A stretch of DNA of 64,000 bases. Source: an uncultured Methylophilaceae bacterium (GTDB lineage: Bacteria; Pseudomonadota; Gammaproteobacteria; Burkholderiales; Methylophilaceae). Position 1 is the first letter of the stretch. Every line of letters begins with the position of its first letter. The notes beneath the pieces were generated by a model, which worked only from the letters and a program-made list of their open reading frames with translations, did not search any database and was not told where the DNA came from. Both the position numbers and the translations under genes were made by a program. The stretch is taken from the NCBI GenBank assembly GCA_903834185.1, contig CAILHX010000051.1, positions 1 to 64,000 on the forward strand. The letters are read 5' to 3'. Below are positions 505 to 4,733 of this stretch, piece after piece.

Positions 505-1128
505 TCAGCACCTCCCACGATCTTCAGACTGGCATGACGGCTCACCCACTGAGCCAGATGCAACCAGTGTGTAATGTTCGACTGTTGGGAAAGGGTCATA
601 AAAATGGTGCGGTAGTGCCCGCCACGCTTGGTATTGATCCGACCCACGAAAACCTTGGGTATGATCTTCTATCGTTTCCCAGTTCACCAGAAGAAGATAT
701 CTGCTTTCAGCCTCAATGCAGCGCTGCAACTGGTGTGAAATGTATCCGGTCATGGATGAAATGATTCCTGATGCCTTTTGAAAGGCCATCTCAAACTCCG
801 GCTCCTGCCCGGCAATGACGTTGAGTATAGCGACTTCCAAAATCATATTGGCCTTACCCGAATCAATCTGATGCCAATCAGCAAACAACCCGGCTCTTGA
901 GCGAATTCGTGAATAGGCGGCGTAATAGCCAATCATCATCAATATGACCCCTGCAAATGAAGCGATGGCCAGTGGCTCCCAACTTGGATTGAGAACCACC
1001 TTTACAAAATCGTAAGCGCCATTACCAATTGGAAGCAATATCGGAAAGAGCGCCGAATATAAAGCAAGAAGCAATGATCCAATGATGAGTGACAACCCAC
1101 CAAGTTTTTCAATCGACAAAAAAATCAT
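505..1128 (-). CDS. Membrane segment fused to antibiotic biosynthesis monooxygenase (ABM) domain
   Basis: The 207-residue product has two parts. Residues 1-80 hold two hydrophobic helices (about 10-34 and 53-72). Residues 95-190 look like a complete YgiN/ABM-type ferredoxin-like monooxygenase domain, with the typical ...FRGSDQYQAWR... region near the C-terminus. An internal ATG at 846, preceded by GGTAAGG, could start a free-standing ABM protein, so this may be two genes joined in frame by a deletion, or a real fusion. The upstream AAGGAG (about 1139-1134) supports the long start. The family acts on quinones and polyketides or as a small heme/quinone monooxygenase; the substrate here is unknown. 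It lies beside the tRNA relic, in accessory-looking DNA. Confidence 0.55.
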   Translation of the reverse strand: MIFLSIEKLGGLSLIIGSLLLALYSALFPILLPIGNGAYDFVKVVLNPSWEPLAIASFAGVILMMIGYYAAYSRIRSRAGLFADWHQIDSGKANMILEVAILNVIAGQEPEFEMAFQKASGIISSMTGYISHQLQRCIEAESRYLLLVNWETIEDHTQGFRGSDQYQAWRALPHHFYDPFPTVEHYTLVASGSVGEPSCQSEDRGRC

Positions 1129-1257
1129 TAAATAAACTCCTTAAGACAGCTTAAATAATTATTCTAAACCTACGCTGGAGAGAGCAACCCAAAGCCCGTT
1201 CAATCTATCCCAGAAATGTGCTTGGGCAATTTAAAGTACAGATTGCGGCCCATTCTT

Positions 1258-2178
1258 TTATTTCTTCTGAGGAAGCGTGATTGCTAACACCCCTGCAAGG
1301 ACTAGACCTGTGCCAATAATCTGTTTCACCGTAATCGGCTCATCAAGAAATACAGCCGCTAACAATACAGTTGAAACAGGCCCGACACTGCCGATCAGGG
1401 AAGCTTTACTGCCTCCAACTTTCTTGATTCCCATGTTAAGCAGAACCACCGGCAGAACAGTCGACACGATGGCCATGAAAAATCCCAGGATGTAAACCTG
1501 TCTTGGCAATTCCAGCGAAGTGATTGGGTGCGTTACCGAAAAATGAGTCAATACAGCAATACAGGCCACAGTCATGGTGTAACCCGTGAACCGCTGTGTT
1601 CCTACCTTGTGGATTGCCGGCCCGCTTCCCACCAGATAACTGGCGTAGGTCATGGAGCTTATAAATACAAATCCAGCTCCTAGAAGTGTTTCTGCATTTT
1701 TGGCGAATGATATCTCATGTGTTGCCACCAGAATGATGCCAGCATAGCTCAGAATTAAAGCAAGTATTTCCTGCTTTCCGATAGCCCTACCTGCTTGCAA
1801 AGCCGAGATAACTACAACAAACGTTGGGTAGAGAAACAGGATCGTTCTTTCCATCCCGGCAGAAACACGCTCCAACCCAAGAAAGTCGAATAACTGTGAG
1901 AAGTACATCCCAGTCAATCCCAGAACAACGATGGATACCCAGTCACGTGAACTCAAGGCTATCGACGACCCATCACGGCTGGCCATTACTGCCATCACCA
2001 TGAAGAATGGAGTGGATATCAGCATACGCAATGCCATCAAAGTGAGGGCGTCTACTGAGTACGCATAGGCCAGTTTGACGAAGATCGCTTTGGCGGAAAA
2101 GGCGATGGCCGAAATAAATACCCATGCCGCACCGACGAGTGCTTCATTACTGCTGGAATTGTGCTTGGTTTGTGACAT
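1258..2178 (-). CDS. EamA/DMT-family inner-membrane transporter
   Basis: The 306-residue protein has about ten hydrophobic helices in two repeated five-helix EamA halves, typical of the drug/metabolite transporter superfamily. Many members export amino acids or their derivatives; E. coli EamA exports O-acetylserine and cysteine. I choose ATG 2178 over an upstream in-frame codon at 2229 because an AAAAGGGG ribosome-binding sequence sits just before it, and because the upstream extension overlaps the regulatory stems. The leader contains a Cys-codon peptide and alternative stems (separate entries), which hints that the substrate is sulfur-related. The family assignment is firm; the substrate is inference only. 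Confidence 0.85.
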   Translation of the reverse strand: MSQTKHNSSSNEALVGAAWVFISAIAFSAKAIFVKLAYAYSVDALTLMALRMLISTPFFMVMAVMASRDGSSIALSSRDWVSIVVLGLTGMYFSQLFDFLGLERVSAGMERTILFLYPTFVVVISALQAGRAIGKQEILALILSYAGIILVATHEISFAKNAETLLGAGFVFISSMTYASYLVGSGPAIHKVGTQRFTGYTMTVACIAVLTHFSVTHPITSLELPRQVYILGFFMAIVSTVLPVVLLNMGIKKVGGSKASLIGSVGPVSTVLLAAVFLDEPITVKQIIGTGLVLAGVLAITLPQKK

Positions 2179-2285
2179 AAGACCCCTTTTATTTGCGGGT
2201 CTTGTCAGCAGGAGAAGAGAACGAACCAACCGCGGAGAAGACCCGCGGTTGCCAAATTAAATCAGGAAATGCAGCAACAACCGCG
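2179..2285 (-). promoter_or_regulatory. Candidate cysteine-responsive translational attenuator of the EamA gene
   Basis: On the minus strand five segments can pair in competing ways. Segment 1 (CGCGGTTG, 2285-2278, inside the leader ORF just ahead of the Cys codons) matches segment 2 (CAACCGCG, 2251-2244). Segment 2 (AACCGCGG, 2250-2243) also matches segment 3 (CCGCGGTT, 2235-2228; 8-bp hairpin with a 7-nt loop). GCGGGTCTT (2246-2238) matches segment 4 (AAGACCCGC, 2203-2195). Segment 4 can instead pair AAGACCC with GGGTCTT (2185-2179), which abuts the EamA start codon and covers its ribosome-binding site. There is no T-run after the stems, so control would be at translation. The pairings are seen; the switching is inferred. 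Confidence 0.6.
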
Positions 2286-2306
2286 AGACGTGTTTAGACG
2301 CCACAT
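2262..2306 (-). CDS. Leader peptide with three consecutive Cys codons
   Basis: A 14-codon ORF reads MWRLNTSRGCCCIS and stops at TGA 2264-2262, 83 nt before the EamA start. The three Cys codons (TGT TGC TGC) directly follow segment 1 of the attenuator. An AAGG lies just upstream of the ATG, although the spacing is short. A strong promoter lies 54 nt upstream. Cys-rich leader peptides are known in other proteobacteria for copper- or sulfur-related genes; I cannot tell whether this one belongs to a described family. The peptide itself probably has no function beyond ribosome stalling. Confidence 0.55.
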   Translation of the reverse strand: MWRLNTSRGCCCIS

Positions 2307-2359
2307 TACCTTGCGGTTTAGTTTGGATTTGGTGTGGTGAATATTTGGCATGGGTCGGC

Positions 2360-2387
2360 ACTATACTCCTGACTTTATGAAAGTCAA
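2360..2387 (-). promoter_or_regulatory. Sigma-70 promoter for the leader peptide and EamA gene
   Basis: On the minus strand TTGACT (2387-2382) and TATAGT (2365-2360) are separated by 16 nt, each differing from consensus at one or two positions. Transcription would begin near 2353 and give a leader of about 175 nt that contains the Cys-codon ORF and the competing stems. Confidence 0.65.
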
Positions 2388-2505
2388 TTTTTTAGTACGC
2401 AATTTCAGTAATCGAGTACTGGTTGTCTACAAATTACAATTTGAGCTATCGGAAATCAACGGAGCCGACACGCTCCTTATAACATTATGTGAGGATGAAC
2501 GACGT

Positions 2506-2745
2506 TCATTTGAGTAGTTCCGATCTTGCTTTTTGTCTGGCCGCTTTTAAGGCCGATTTGTCTGATTTTATTTTTTGTTTATCGCTATGCAAGGTGTCCT
2601 TATCTGCCTCAGCAGCAATGTCAGCGTGCATTTTTGCTACATCCGTCTGCAGCTTTTTAGCAGCCGCATCGATTGCATCCTCCGCAAATACATTTGTTGT
2701 TATCAGCAATAAGCATGTCATGAAGAGTACAAATGCGTTGATCAT
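2506..2745 (-). CDS. Small secreted Lys/Ala-rich protein, unknown function
   Basis: The 79-residue product starts at ATG 2745 after AAAGGACA. It opens with a clear signal peptide (MINAFVLFMTCLLLITTNVFA) and likely cleavage before EDAID. The mature part, about 58 residues, is almost entirely Lys, Ala, Asp and Gln with heptad-like spacing, so it is probably helical or a coiled coil in the periplasm. It follows recG on the same strand with about 60 nt between. I do not recognise a family. Similar short periplasmic helical proteins are often annotated hypothetical. Confidence 0.55.
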   Translation of the reverse strand: MINAFVLFMTCLLLITTNVFAEDAIDAAAKKLQTDVAKMHADIAAEADKDTLHSDKQKIKSDKSALKAARQKARSELLK

Positions 2746-2804
2746 TGAGTGTCCTTTGTAAAACATTTTGCATAGACTAACGCGTATACGCGAATACAGC
2801 GATA

Positions 2805-4733
2805 TCAAACCTTAACGTATTCTTCAGCCCGCCCCATCCATCTGTTCAAATGCAGTTCCGCCGTCTGTGGCTGCTCTTTCAATATATGATCTGCAGCTTC
2901 TCTAGCCTGCTCCAGCAAGTCGGCATCGCGCTCCAGATCGGCGATCTTCAACATTGGCACGCCACTTTGCCGCACCCCCAAAAACTCGCCAGGTCCACGC
3001 AGATGAAGATCCGCTCGCGCGATCTCGAAGCCATCCGTATTTTCATAGATCACTTTCAGTCTGGCTCTGGCCGTTTCGGATAACGGTTTCTGGTAGAGCA
3101 GGATACAGGCGCTCCTAGCAGCACCCCGCCCCACACGCCCGCGCAACTGATGTAGCTGAGAGAGGCCGAAACGCTCGGCGTGTTCAATCACCATCAAACT
3201 TGCATTCGGCACATCCACACCGACTTCAATCACTGTGGTTGCGACCAGCAAATGGATTTCTCCCTCAACAAACTGCTGCATCACCACCTGTTTTTCTGCG
3301 GGTTTCAGCCTGCCGTGAACGATACCAACCTTGAGTTCAGGCAACAATGCAGACAGTGTGGCATGGGTATCCAGCGCCGTTTGTATGTCCTCCAACGCTT
3401 CTGATTCCTCAATCAGCGGACACACCCAGTACACCTGCTGTCCTTGCAGACATGCATCGCGCACCCCCTGGATCACTTCATCTCGACGGTTGTCGGCCAG
3501 CAACTTGGTGGTGATAGGCGTTCGACCAGGTGGCAATTCATCAATCACGGACACATCCAGATCGGCGTAATAGCTCATGGAAAGGGTACGCGGAATGGGT
3601 GTTGCGCTCATCATCAACTGGTGCGTTTCCTTGCCTTTTTGCCTGAGCGCCAAGCGTTGGTGCACGCCGAAACGGTGCTGCTCATCTACAATGGATAAGG
3701 CGAGATTGGCAAATTCAACTTTGTCCTGAAATAAGGCATGCGTGCCTATCGCCAATTGCGCCGTGCCATCAAGGCATGCCTGAATACCCGGTTCGCGTTG
3801 TTTCTTGCTCTGGCTGCCGGTTAGCCATATCACCTTTACACCCAACGGGGTCAGCCAACCTGCAAGTTTTTGGTAATGCTGCTCTGCCAGAATCTCGGTA
3901 GGTGCCATAAGTGCCACCTGCCTGCCGTTCTCTATGGCTTGCAACGCAGCCAGTGCTGCCACTATGGTTTTGCCGCTACCAACATCGCCTTGCAGCAATC
4001 TTTGCATAGGATGAGGGCGTGCCAGATCTGCGCTGATCTCACTCACCACTTTCTGCTGGGCGCGTGTCAACGCAAAAGGCAAAGCCTGAATGAACGCTTG
4101 GGTAAGCTGATTTTTCGCTGGCAGTGAAGGTGCTTGTTGTTCGCGACGACGCGCATAATGACGGCGCATTGATAGTTGCTGTGCCAGCAGCTCATCGAAT
4201 GCCAATCGCCGCCAGGCCGGATGATCACGGTTCTCCAGTGTAGCGAGTGAAATTTCCGGAGAAGGCTGGTGCAGCAAGCGGATGGTACTGGCAAAGTCCG
4301 GCAAATACAGCCGTTGTAACAGCGAGGGAGGCAAAGTATCCGGCAATATGTCCTGCGCCAGCACCTGATTGACCAGACCACGCAAAGTGGCTTGCGACAA
4401 GCTGGCAGTAGTAGGATAAACGGGCGTCAACGCCTGTTTCAGCGGCGCGTCTTCAGTGACTTTTTTACACTGCGGGTGCACCATCTCCATACCGAAGAAT
4501 CCCTGACGCGGTTCGCCAAACACTCTTAAGCGAGTGCCCACTTTCATCTGCGCAACCTGACTGGGATAAAAATTCAGAAAGCGCAAATACAGCACATCGG
4601 TCTGATCCTGCAATTGGCAGATCAATGCCTTGCGCGGTCTGTATTGAGTTTCTGCATGGATGATCTCGCCTTCGACTTGTGCCGACTCCCCCCAGCGCAA
4701 ATCGCGGATGGCGGTGATGCGTGTCTCATCCAC
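2805..4733 (-). CDS. recG: ATP-dependent DNA helicase RecG
   Basis: RecG reverses stalled forks and processes Holliday junctions. The sequence shows the OB-fold wedge domain at the N-terminus, then helicase motifs: Walker A GDVGSGKT, a DEQH box in VDEQHRFG, the SATPIPRT motif III, and QLRGRVGR motif VI. The C-terminal TRG-like region follows. GTG 4733 is the first conventional start, but it falls inside the conserved LPLRY motif. The same frame stays open back to 4862 and encodes the expected extra N-terminal residues (LKGATKPVLSRLQKLGI, then LLLHLPLRY) without any ATG, GTG or TTG. The true start may therefore be a CTG at 4844. It lies just downstream of ridA on the same strand. Confidence 0.9.
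   Translation of the reverse strand: MDETRITAIRDLRWGESAQVEGEIIHAETQYRPRKALICQLQDQTDVLYLRFLNFYPSQVAQMKVGTRLRVFGEPRQGFFGMEMVHPQCKKVTEDAPLKQALTPVYPTTASLSQATLRGLVNQVLAQDILPDTLPPSLLQRLYLPDFASTIRLLHQPSPEISLATLENRDHPAWRRLAFDELLAQQLSMRRHYARRREQQAPSLPAKNQLTQAFIQALPFALTRAQQKVVSEISADLARPHPMQRLLQGDVGSGKTIVAALAALQAIENGRQVALMAPTEILAEQHYQKLAGWLTPLGVKVIWLTGSQSKKQREPGIQACLDGTAQLAIGTHALFQDKVEFANLALSIVDEQHRFGVHQRLALRQKGKETHQLMMSATPIPRTLSMSYYADLDVSVIDELPPGRTPITTKLLADNRRDEVIQGVRDACLQGQQVYWVCPLIEESEALEDIQTALDTHATLSALLPELKVGIVHGRLKPAEKQVVMQQFVEGEIHLLVATTVIEVGVDVPNASLMVIEHAERFGLSQLHQLRGRVGRGAARSACILLYQKPLSETARARLKVIYENTDGFEIARADLHLRGPGEFLGVRQSGVPMLKIADLERDADLLEQAREAADHILKEQPQTAELHLNRWMGRAEEYVKV

Follow-up and report, generated by a model that had tools for sequence, protein, structure and literature searches.

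An EamA-family transporter gene in the window (the whole 64-kb stretch of DNA that we analysed) follows a leader that combines a sigma-70-like promoter, a short upstream open reading frame (uORF) and a chain of competing stems able to mask the EamA ribosome-binding site (RBS). Conservation and covariation among relatives support the view, put forward in a first-pass annotation, that the leader is a uORF-dependent translational attenuator. That annotation took Cys to be the sensed residue. We find instead a near-universal Trp codon and, with moderate confidence, read the leader as a cis-acting attenuator of the trp type, which would sense the charging of tRNA-Trp.

The leader and its chain of stems

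The features of the leader, in the order of transcription, are as follows.

2382-2387, minus strand: -35 hexamer TTGACT; TTGAC is also kept 5' of the leaders of relatives
2360-2365, minus strand: -10 hexamer TATAGT; transcription is predicted to start at about 2354-2352
2262-2351, minus strand: leaderless leader ORF encoding MPNIHHTKSKLNRKVMWRLNTSRGCCCIS and a stop; its ATG lies 8 nt past the -10, a layout common to 67 distinct relatives
2313-2318, minus strand: segment 0, AACCGC (codons Asn12-Arg13); possible partner of 2284-2279, weak in the window genome (P at most 0.12)
2301-2303, minus strand: conserved Trp codon (Trp17 of the leader)
2278-2285, minus strand: segment 1, CGCGGTTG (codons Arg23 and Gly24 and 2 nt of Cys25)
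2271-2279, minus strand: three Cys codons, TGT TGC TGC
2243-2251, minus strand: segment 2, CAACCGCGG; partner of segment 1 or 3
2238-2246, minus strand: segment 2', GCGGGTCTT; anti-sequestering arm that would capture segment 4
2227-2235, minus strand: segment 3, CCGCGGTTG; makes the 2:3 hairpin
2195-2203, minus strand: segment 4, AAGACCCGC; partner of 2' in the open state and of the RBS in the closed one
2179-2185, minus strand: segment 5, GGGTCTT, the EamA Shine-Dalgarno region; sequestered by segment 4
2285-2278 with 2251-2244, minus strand: stem 1:2, 8 bp, CGCGGUUG/CAACCGCG
2251-2243 with 2235-2227, minus strand: stem 2:3, 9 bp, CAACCGCGG/CCGCGGUUG
2246-2238 with 2203-2195, minus strand: stem 2':4 (2:4 in the first-pass annotation), 9 bp, GCGGGUCUU/AAGACCCGC
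2203-2197 with 2185-2179, minus strand: stem 4:5, 7 bp, AAGACCC/GGGUCUU
1258-2178, minus strand: EamA/DMT-family transporter, 306 aa (Pfam PF00892, E 1.4e-38)

The promoter proposed earlier, TTGACT-16-TATAGT (2387-2360, minus strand), proved to be the sole sigma-70-like site within 1000-4000. The leader peptide had been read from an ATG at 2306, and MWRLNTSRGCCCIS can indeed be read at 2306-2262, but an in-frame ATG lies further upstream at 2351 in an arrangement shared by relatives. We therefore rejected 2306 as the start and take the ORF from 2351, encoding MPNIHHTKSKLNRKVMWRLNTSRGCCCIS, as the true one. Since this ATG stands just 8 nt past the -10, the window transcript is predicted from its sequence to be leaderless or nearly so; in the 67 distinct leaders of relatives the ATG lies 4-10 nt past the -10.

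All of the stems named in the first-pass annotation exist where it placed them, as perfect Watson-Crick helices. The three Cys codons had been placed on a stem arm; arm 1 does touch two bases of the first of them (2279-2277), but the rest of it covers the Arg-Gly codons CGC GGT. The 2:3 hairpin, previously listed as a mere further alternative, turned out to be dominant, with P 0.86 in free RNA and 0.99 once a ribosome occupies the Cys codons. Although this hairpin (2251-2227) passes a loose terminator scan, such sites are no more numerous than in shuffled sequences, and no U-run follows it (GTTCGTTCTC comes next). We therefore rejected a transcriptional terminator in 2:3; the leader does not have the intrinsic-terminator output of a trp-type attenuator, and its output is RBS access.

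The EamA protein falls well below every NCBIfam equivalog cut-off, including that of the aromatic amino-acid exporter YddG (62.4 bits against a cut-off of 300 bits). Just two solved structures match its profile, LicB (7b0k, 9.3e-9) and 5i20 (5.8e-4), the second of which we take to be a YddG; its kinship with DMT proteins of known structure is remote. LicB is a choline importer within the DMT superfamily. Export of Cys or O-acetylserine (OAS), brought up in the first-pass annotation, is a putative function of the EamA protein. Two further genes flank the unit on the same strand. Adjoining the leader promoter on its upstream side (2506-2745, minus strand) is a 79-aa protein whose N-terminus is signal-like and whose sequence is otherwise Ala/Lys-rich, for which Pfam and NCBIfam searches gave no match. 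Downstream of EamA (505-1128, minus strand), a protein carries a C-terminal antibiotic biosynthesis monooxygenase (ABM) domain after hydrophobic N-terminal stretches.

Conservation and covariation among relatives

We gathered orthologous EamA genes from the Methylophilaceae family (44 of 187 genomes), from relatives and from named genomes. Many of them are preceded by the same conserved unit, in which a TTGAC box and a TANNNT -10 are followed after 4-10 nt by the ATG of a short ORF and then by the stem chain. Promoter, leaderless ORF and stem chain are thus conserved together ahead of orthologous EamA genes. Hosts include Methylophilaceae, Gallionella, Sideroxydans, Sulfuriferula and Sulfuricella and, beyond these betaproteobacterial relatives, Methylomonas; a Nitrospinota metagenome-assembled genome (L117) matches more weakly. 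A first covariance model (R1), made from 33 leaders, found 47 members at E <=0.01 among 83 loci. A second model (R2) was built from 20 leaders with Methylophilaceae left out. Its sole match in the 64-kb window is 2312-2173 on the minus strand (E 4.1e-10), and it recovers held-out relatives down to E ~1e-3. Because a model made from the leaders of other families picks exactly this site and no other, the element is more than a chance arrangement.

In order- and class-wide searches with the models, every listed element precedes the EamA clade except one (L161; genome G060, C10:329953-330089), which precedes a truncated EamA remnant (MASHTRKTFAHRDVLTGALLSAG and a stop). The start codon of that leader has apparently decayed too, a switch outliving its gene. 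Since all listed elements precede the EamA clade or its remnant, other regulated genes give no clue to the ligand. In one genome of the window's genus (G001, L019), EamA has no leader; the gene immediately before it is of the Lrp/AsnC type (AsnC ligand-binding domain in Pfam, 1.7e-18), which hints, if weakly, that the substrate is related to amino acids. Diverged leaderless Trp uORFs also stand before EamA in Chromatiaceae, Zetaproteobacteria, Nitrospinales and other relatives (L093, L094, L103, L123, L130 and L026); their stems are near or beyond the detection limit of R2, and they likely point to a wider family. Neither the window region nor any of 17 relatives credibly matched an Rfam covariance model, by which we rejected a known riboswitch or amino-acid leader, and searches of open-licence papers returned no description of the element.

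To examine covariation we used an alignment (A3) fitted to 0:1, 2:3 and 4:5, so that 2':4 and 1:2 are tests outside the fit. Stem 2':4 is paired in 88.4% of cases and shows 50 double-change cells against 18.5 in shuffles (0/500), the cells being counts of sequences and not of events; slid versions pair at 29-48%. Stem 1:2 is paired in 87.1%, with 10 double-change cells against 4.2 in shuffles (1/500) and 31-57% for slid versions. The covarying stems that the first-pass annotation called for are therefore present, strongly for 2':4 and modestly for 1:2. For 4:5, assessed on an alignment fitted to it and with small register corrections in 2-3 rows, the values are 76% and 45 against 14.8 (0/300). 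Stem 0:1 shows no covariation in the alignment of relatives. A single ancient split, between GGGUCU/AGACCC and GGGCUC/GAGCCC groups, accounts for part of the signal, and further pairing types occur beyond it (L031, L032, L018, L006 and L008).

Trp codon, ribosome position and alternative readings

We asked which residue of the uORF is conserved. The residue count over 67 leaders had required a Trp. When it was repeated under a strict promoter without that requirement, 69 distinct leaderless ORFs were obtained, 68 of which contain Trp. The lone Trp-less ORF (L041, genome G118) carries its Trp portion out of frame, through a disruption between the start and the Trp motif that may be real or a sequencing or assembly frameshift. 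The Leu codon before the Trp varies (CTG, TTG, CTA, TTA), as expected of a translated codon, and in RLWLW-type leaders the first Trp can be replaced (RLPLW in L003, RLLLW in L154, RLRLW in L163) while the second is retained. Cys behaves otherwise. Among the last 12 residues, 15 of the 67 distinct leaders have no Cys and 29 have one, so that 44 of 67 lack any run of Cys codons there; clusters are confined to Methylophilaceae-type leaders.

We also folded the leaders with and without a ribosome. In the window, free RNA is closed (P 0.86 for 2:3 and 0.90 for 4:5), the default fold thus sequestering the RBS as in erm-type attenuators, and the covarying 2':4 is the alternative stem by which release is predicted. 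A ribosome on any Cys codon makes it more closed, and with a ribosome at Trp the full-length equilibrium is still closed (2:3 0.98, 4:5 0.87). In nascent RNA, taken as RNA ending before segment 3, 1:2 of the window reaches 0.98 with a ribosome at Trp and 0.96 without one and so does not discriminate. Given a closed equilibrium and a ribosome-independent nascent 1:2, switching in the window would have to be kinetic. Across relatives, the mutually exclusive stems do depend on a ribosome at Trp. The mean nascent P(1:2) is 0.21 without and 0.72 with it in 20 Methylophilaceae-type leaders, and 0.25 without and 0.79 with it in 27 others, means that are probably understated owing to imperfect A3 column registers in some rows (e.g. 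L001, L018, L032). At full length, a ribosome at Trp in Methylophilaceae-type leaders lowers P(2:3) from 0.97 to 0.48 and raises P(2':4) from 0.01 to 0.34, and folding favours the open state, 1:2 with 2':4, in several relatives; the equilibrium of the 27 other leaders barely shifts and is mostly closed. As proof of a switch, equilibrium folding is convincing in part of the Methylophilaceae-type leaders, and we rejected it as such for the window.

These results bear directly on the earlier proposal of an attenuator for charged tRNA-Cys (or Cu/S), in which the RBS opens when the ribosome pauses at the Cys codons. The Cys-rich C-termini (CCGCC, CCC and similar) of the 20 Methylophilaceae-type leaders analysed agree with it, as does a leader (L031) that keeps Cys-Cys without TGCGGTTGC pairing, and Cys-codon attenuators are known elsewhere (uORFC-8-2 before cysS, PMC8632094). 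However, the elements of other families lack the Cys cluster, and the Cys codons are partly due to GCGGTTGC, which is required for 1:2 and, in Methylophilaceae-type leaders, itself codes for Cys-Gly-Cys. The predicted sign is also probably wrong: a ribosome on segment 1 or on the Cys codons leaves 2:3 at 0.98-0.99 and 2':4 at about zero (0.98 and 0.00 for segment 1 in full-length Methylophilaceae-type leaders), a closed state. We thus rejected Cys as the sensed residue on the comparison with other families and on folding, and consider a Cys sensor distinctly improbable.

In the trp-type reading that we prefer, the leaderless uORF would be translated from the mRNA 5' end. If the ribosome did not pause, segment 2 would fold with 3, leaving segment 4 free to cover the EamA Shine-Dalgarno (4:5), the OFF state. 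A shortage of charged tRNA-Trp would make the ribosome pause at the conserved Trp codon and free segment 1, so that 1:2 would pair before segment 3 is made; 1:2 would then block 2:3, 2' would capture 4 and the RBS would be exposed, the ON state. What we computed is the conserved architecture, its covariation, the near-universal presence of Trp and the way folding shifts in relatives; that the uORF is translated, that tRNA-Trp is the signal, which sign the response has and what the transporter carries are inferred. The restriction of the element to the EamA clade or its remnant counts for this model. Counting against it are the closed equilibrium of the window, the unresponsive leaders outside the Methylophilaceae type, the lack of covariation in 0:1 and the single Trp codon (52 of 67 leaders), classical trp leaders carrying tandem Trp codons.

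The same Trp codon could serve other kinds of stalling. In a TnaC-like arrest, the main rival to our reading, free Trp (or another ligand) and a nascent chain whose Trp stands some 12-13 residues before the C-terminal end would hold the ribosome at the leader stop, where it would cover the 5' part of segment 2 and block 2:3, so that 2':4 opens the RBS; such induction by excess fits an exporter. In 49 of 67 leaders the first Trp does lie 12-13 codons ahead of the stop, a linker of 5-9 nt often separates the stop from segment 2, and a footprint edge 15-17 nt past the stop brings P(2:3) to 0.33-0.58 in Methylophilaceae-type leaders. We nevertheless judge this arrest unlikely, if a serious contender: the spacing spans 8-18 codons, many linkers are 12-24 nt and beyond the ribosome's reach, the C-terminal Pro and mid-peptide Asp of TnaC are not conserved, and the conservation of 1:2 is left unexplained. 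It is improbable that the Trp motif forms part of a stall site for an antibiotic or other translation stress, with EamA as a drug exporter. Drug exporters do occur among DMT proteins, leader control of drug pumps has precedents (BmrC/BmrD, PMC4191407) and the residue before Leu-Trp is usually basic, yet the leaders contain no known drug-stall motif, RLR-like or other, and a near-universal Trp amid variable neighbours points to Trp itself. That the hairpins are conserved around a chance ORF of no regulatory use we regard as highly improbable; transcription and translation are here predictions from the DNA, but the ATG position is conserved in 67 distinct leaders, all with the ORF, and synonymous Leu variation occurs while Trp is kept where pairing changes.

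A Trp-starvation signal would be odd if the EamA protein were an exporter, and induction by Trp shortage would make an importer more likely. It is possible, if on balance doubtful, that the leaders form a widespread and so far undescribed class of translational attenuators responding to Trp, with a leaderless uORF, confined to one EamA/DMT clade and ON when charged tRNA-Trp is scarce, and that the protein imports Trp (or an aromatic precursor) instead of exporting as annotated. The element adds a conserved, so far unlisted candidate RNA regulator, in which leaderless initiation and a near-invariant Trp codon are combined with a chain of stems that acts on the RBS. It would link uncharacterised EamA transporters of methylotrophs and of iron and sulfur oxidisers to tryptophan, a lead on their substrate. 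Cys-rich leader peptides can, moreover, be a by-product of RNA pairing, which calls for caution when the sensed amino acid is inferred from one genome.

Relation to known leaders

Sinorhizobium meliloti trpL, the mycobacterial polycysteine sORFs, the cysS uORF and ykkC-2d are nearest in kind, and none of them equals the EamA element. RNAs of ykkC subtype 2d lie upstream of EamA genes (PMC7266159). Like them, the EamA leader would be an RNA element that controls EamA-annotated transporters, but it has no Rfam match and appears to be a uORF attenuator rather than an aptamer. The polycysteine sORFs, leaderless according to Canestrari et al. 2020 as cited in PMC9031893, and the uORFC-8-2 motif before cysS in Rhodobacterales (PMC8632094) are likewise short Cys-codon uORFs acting by ribosome speed. 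As far as the cited account of the sORFs goes, the EamA leader differs from both in its non-conserved Cys, its host bacteria and its target, and its stems predict closure on a Cys pause.

The EamA leader shares RBS sequestration with erm-type translational attenuators and differs from them in its extra anti-sequestering arm 2', its trp-like chain and the lack of a recognised drug-stall motif. In erm-type systems, translation of the leader peptide decides whether the downstream RBS is sequestered. In TnaC the critical Trp stands about 12 residues before the stop (W12 to P24), close to the spacing of 12-13 in most EamA leaders. TnaC (tnaCAB) senses free Trp (PMC3902921); unlike it, the EamA leader lacks the terminal Pro, has a spacing of 8-18 and would switch translation.

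The trpL of S. meliloti trpLE(G) is a leaderless mRNA (PMC7298713), and the uORF of the EamA leader is likewise predicted to be leaderless. As in the trp attenuators of E. coli trpL and S. meliloti trpL, the Trp codon lies in or beside the first arm of mutually exclusive stems and a pause would free the next arm, so that 0:1, 1:2 and 2:3 of the EamA leader correspond to 1:2, 2:3 and 3:4 of the trp attenuator. Unlike the latter, the EamA leader would act on RBS access instead of a terminator, usually has one Trp codon, targets a transporter and carries the extra segments 4 and 5.
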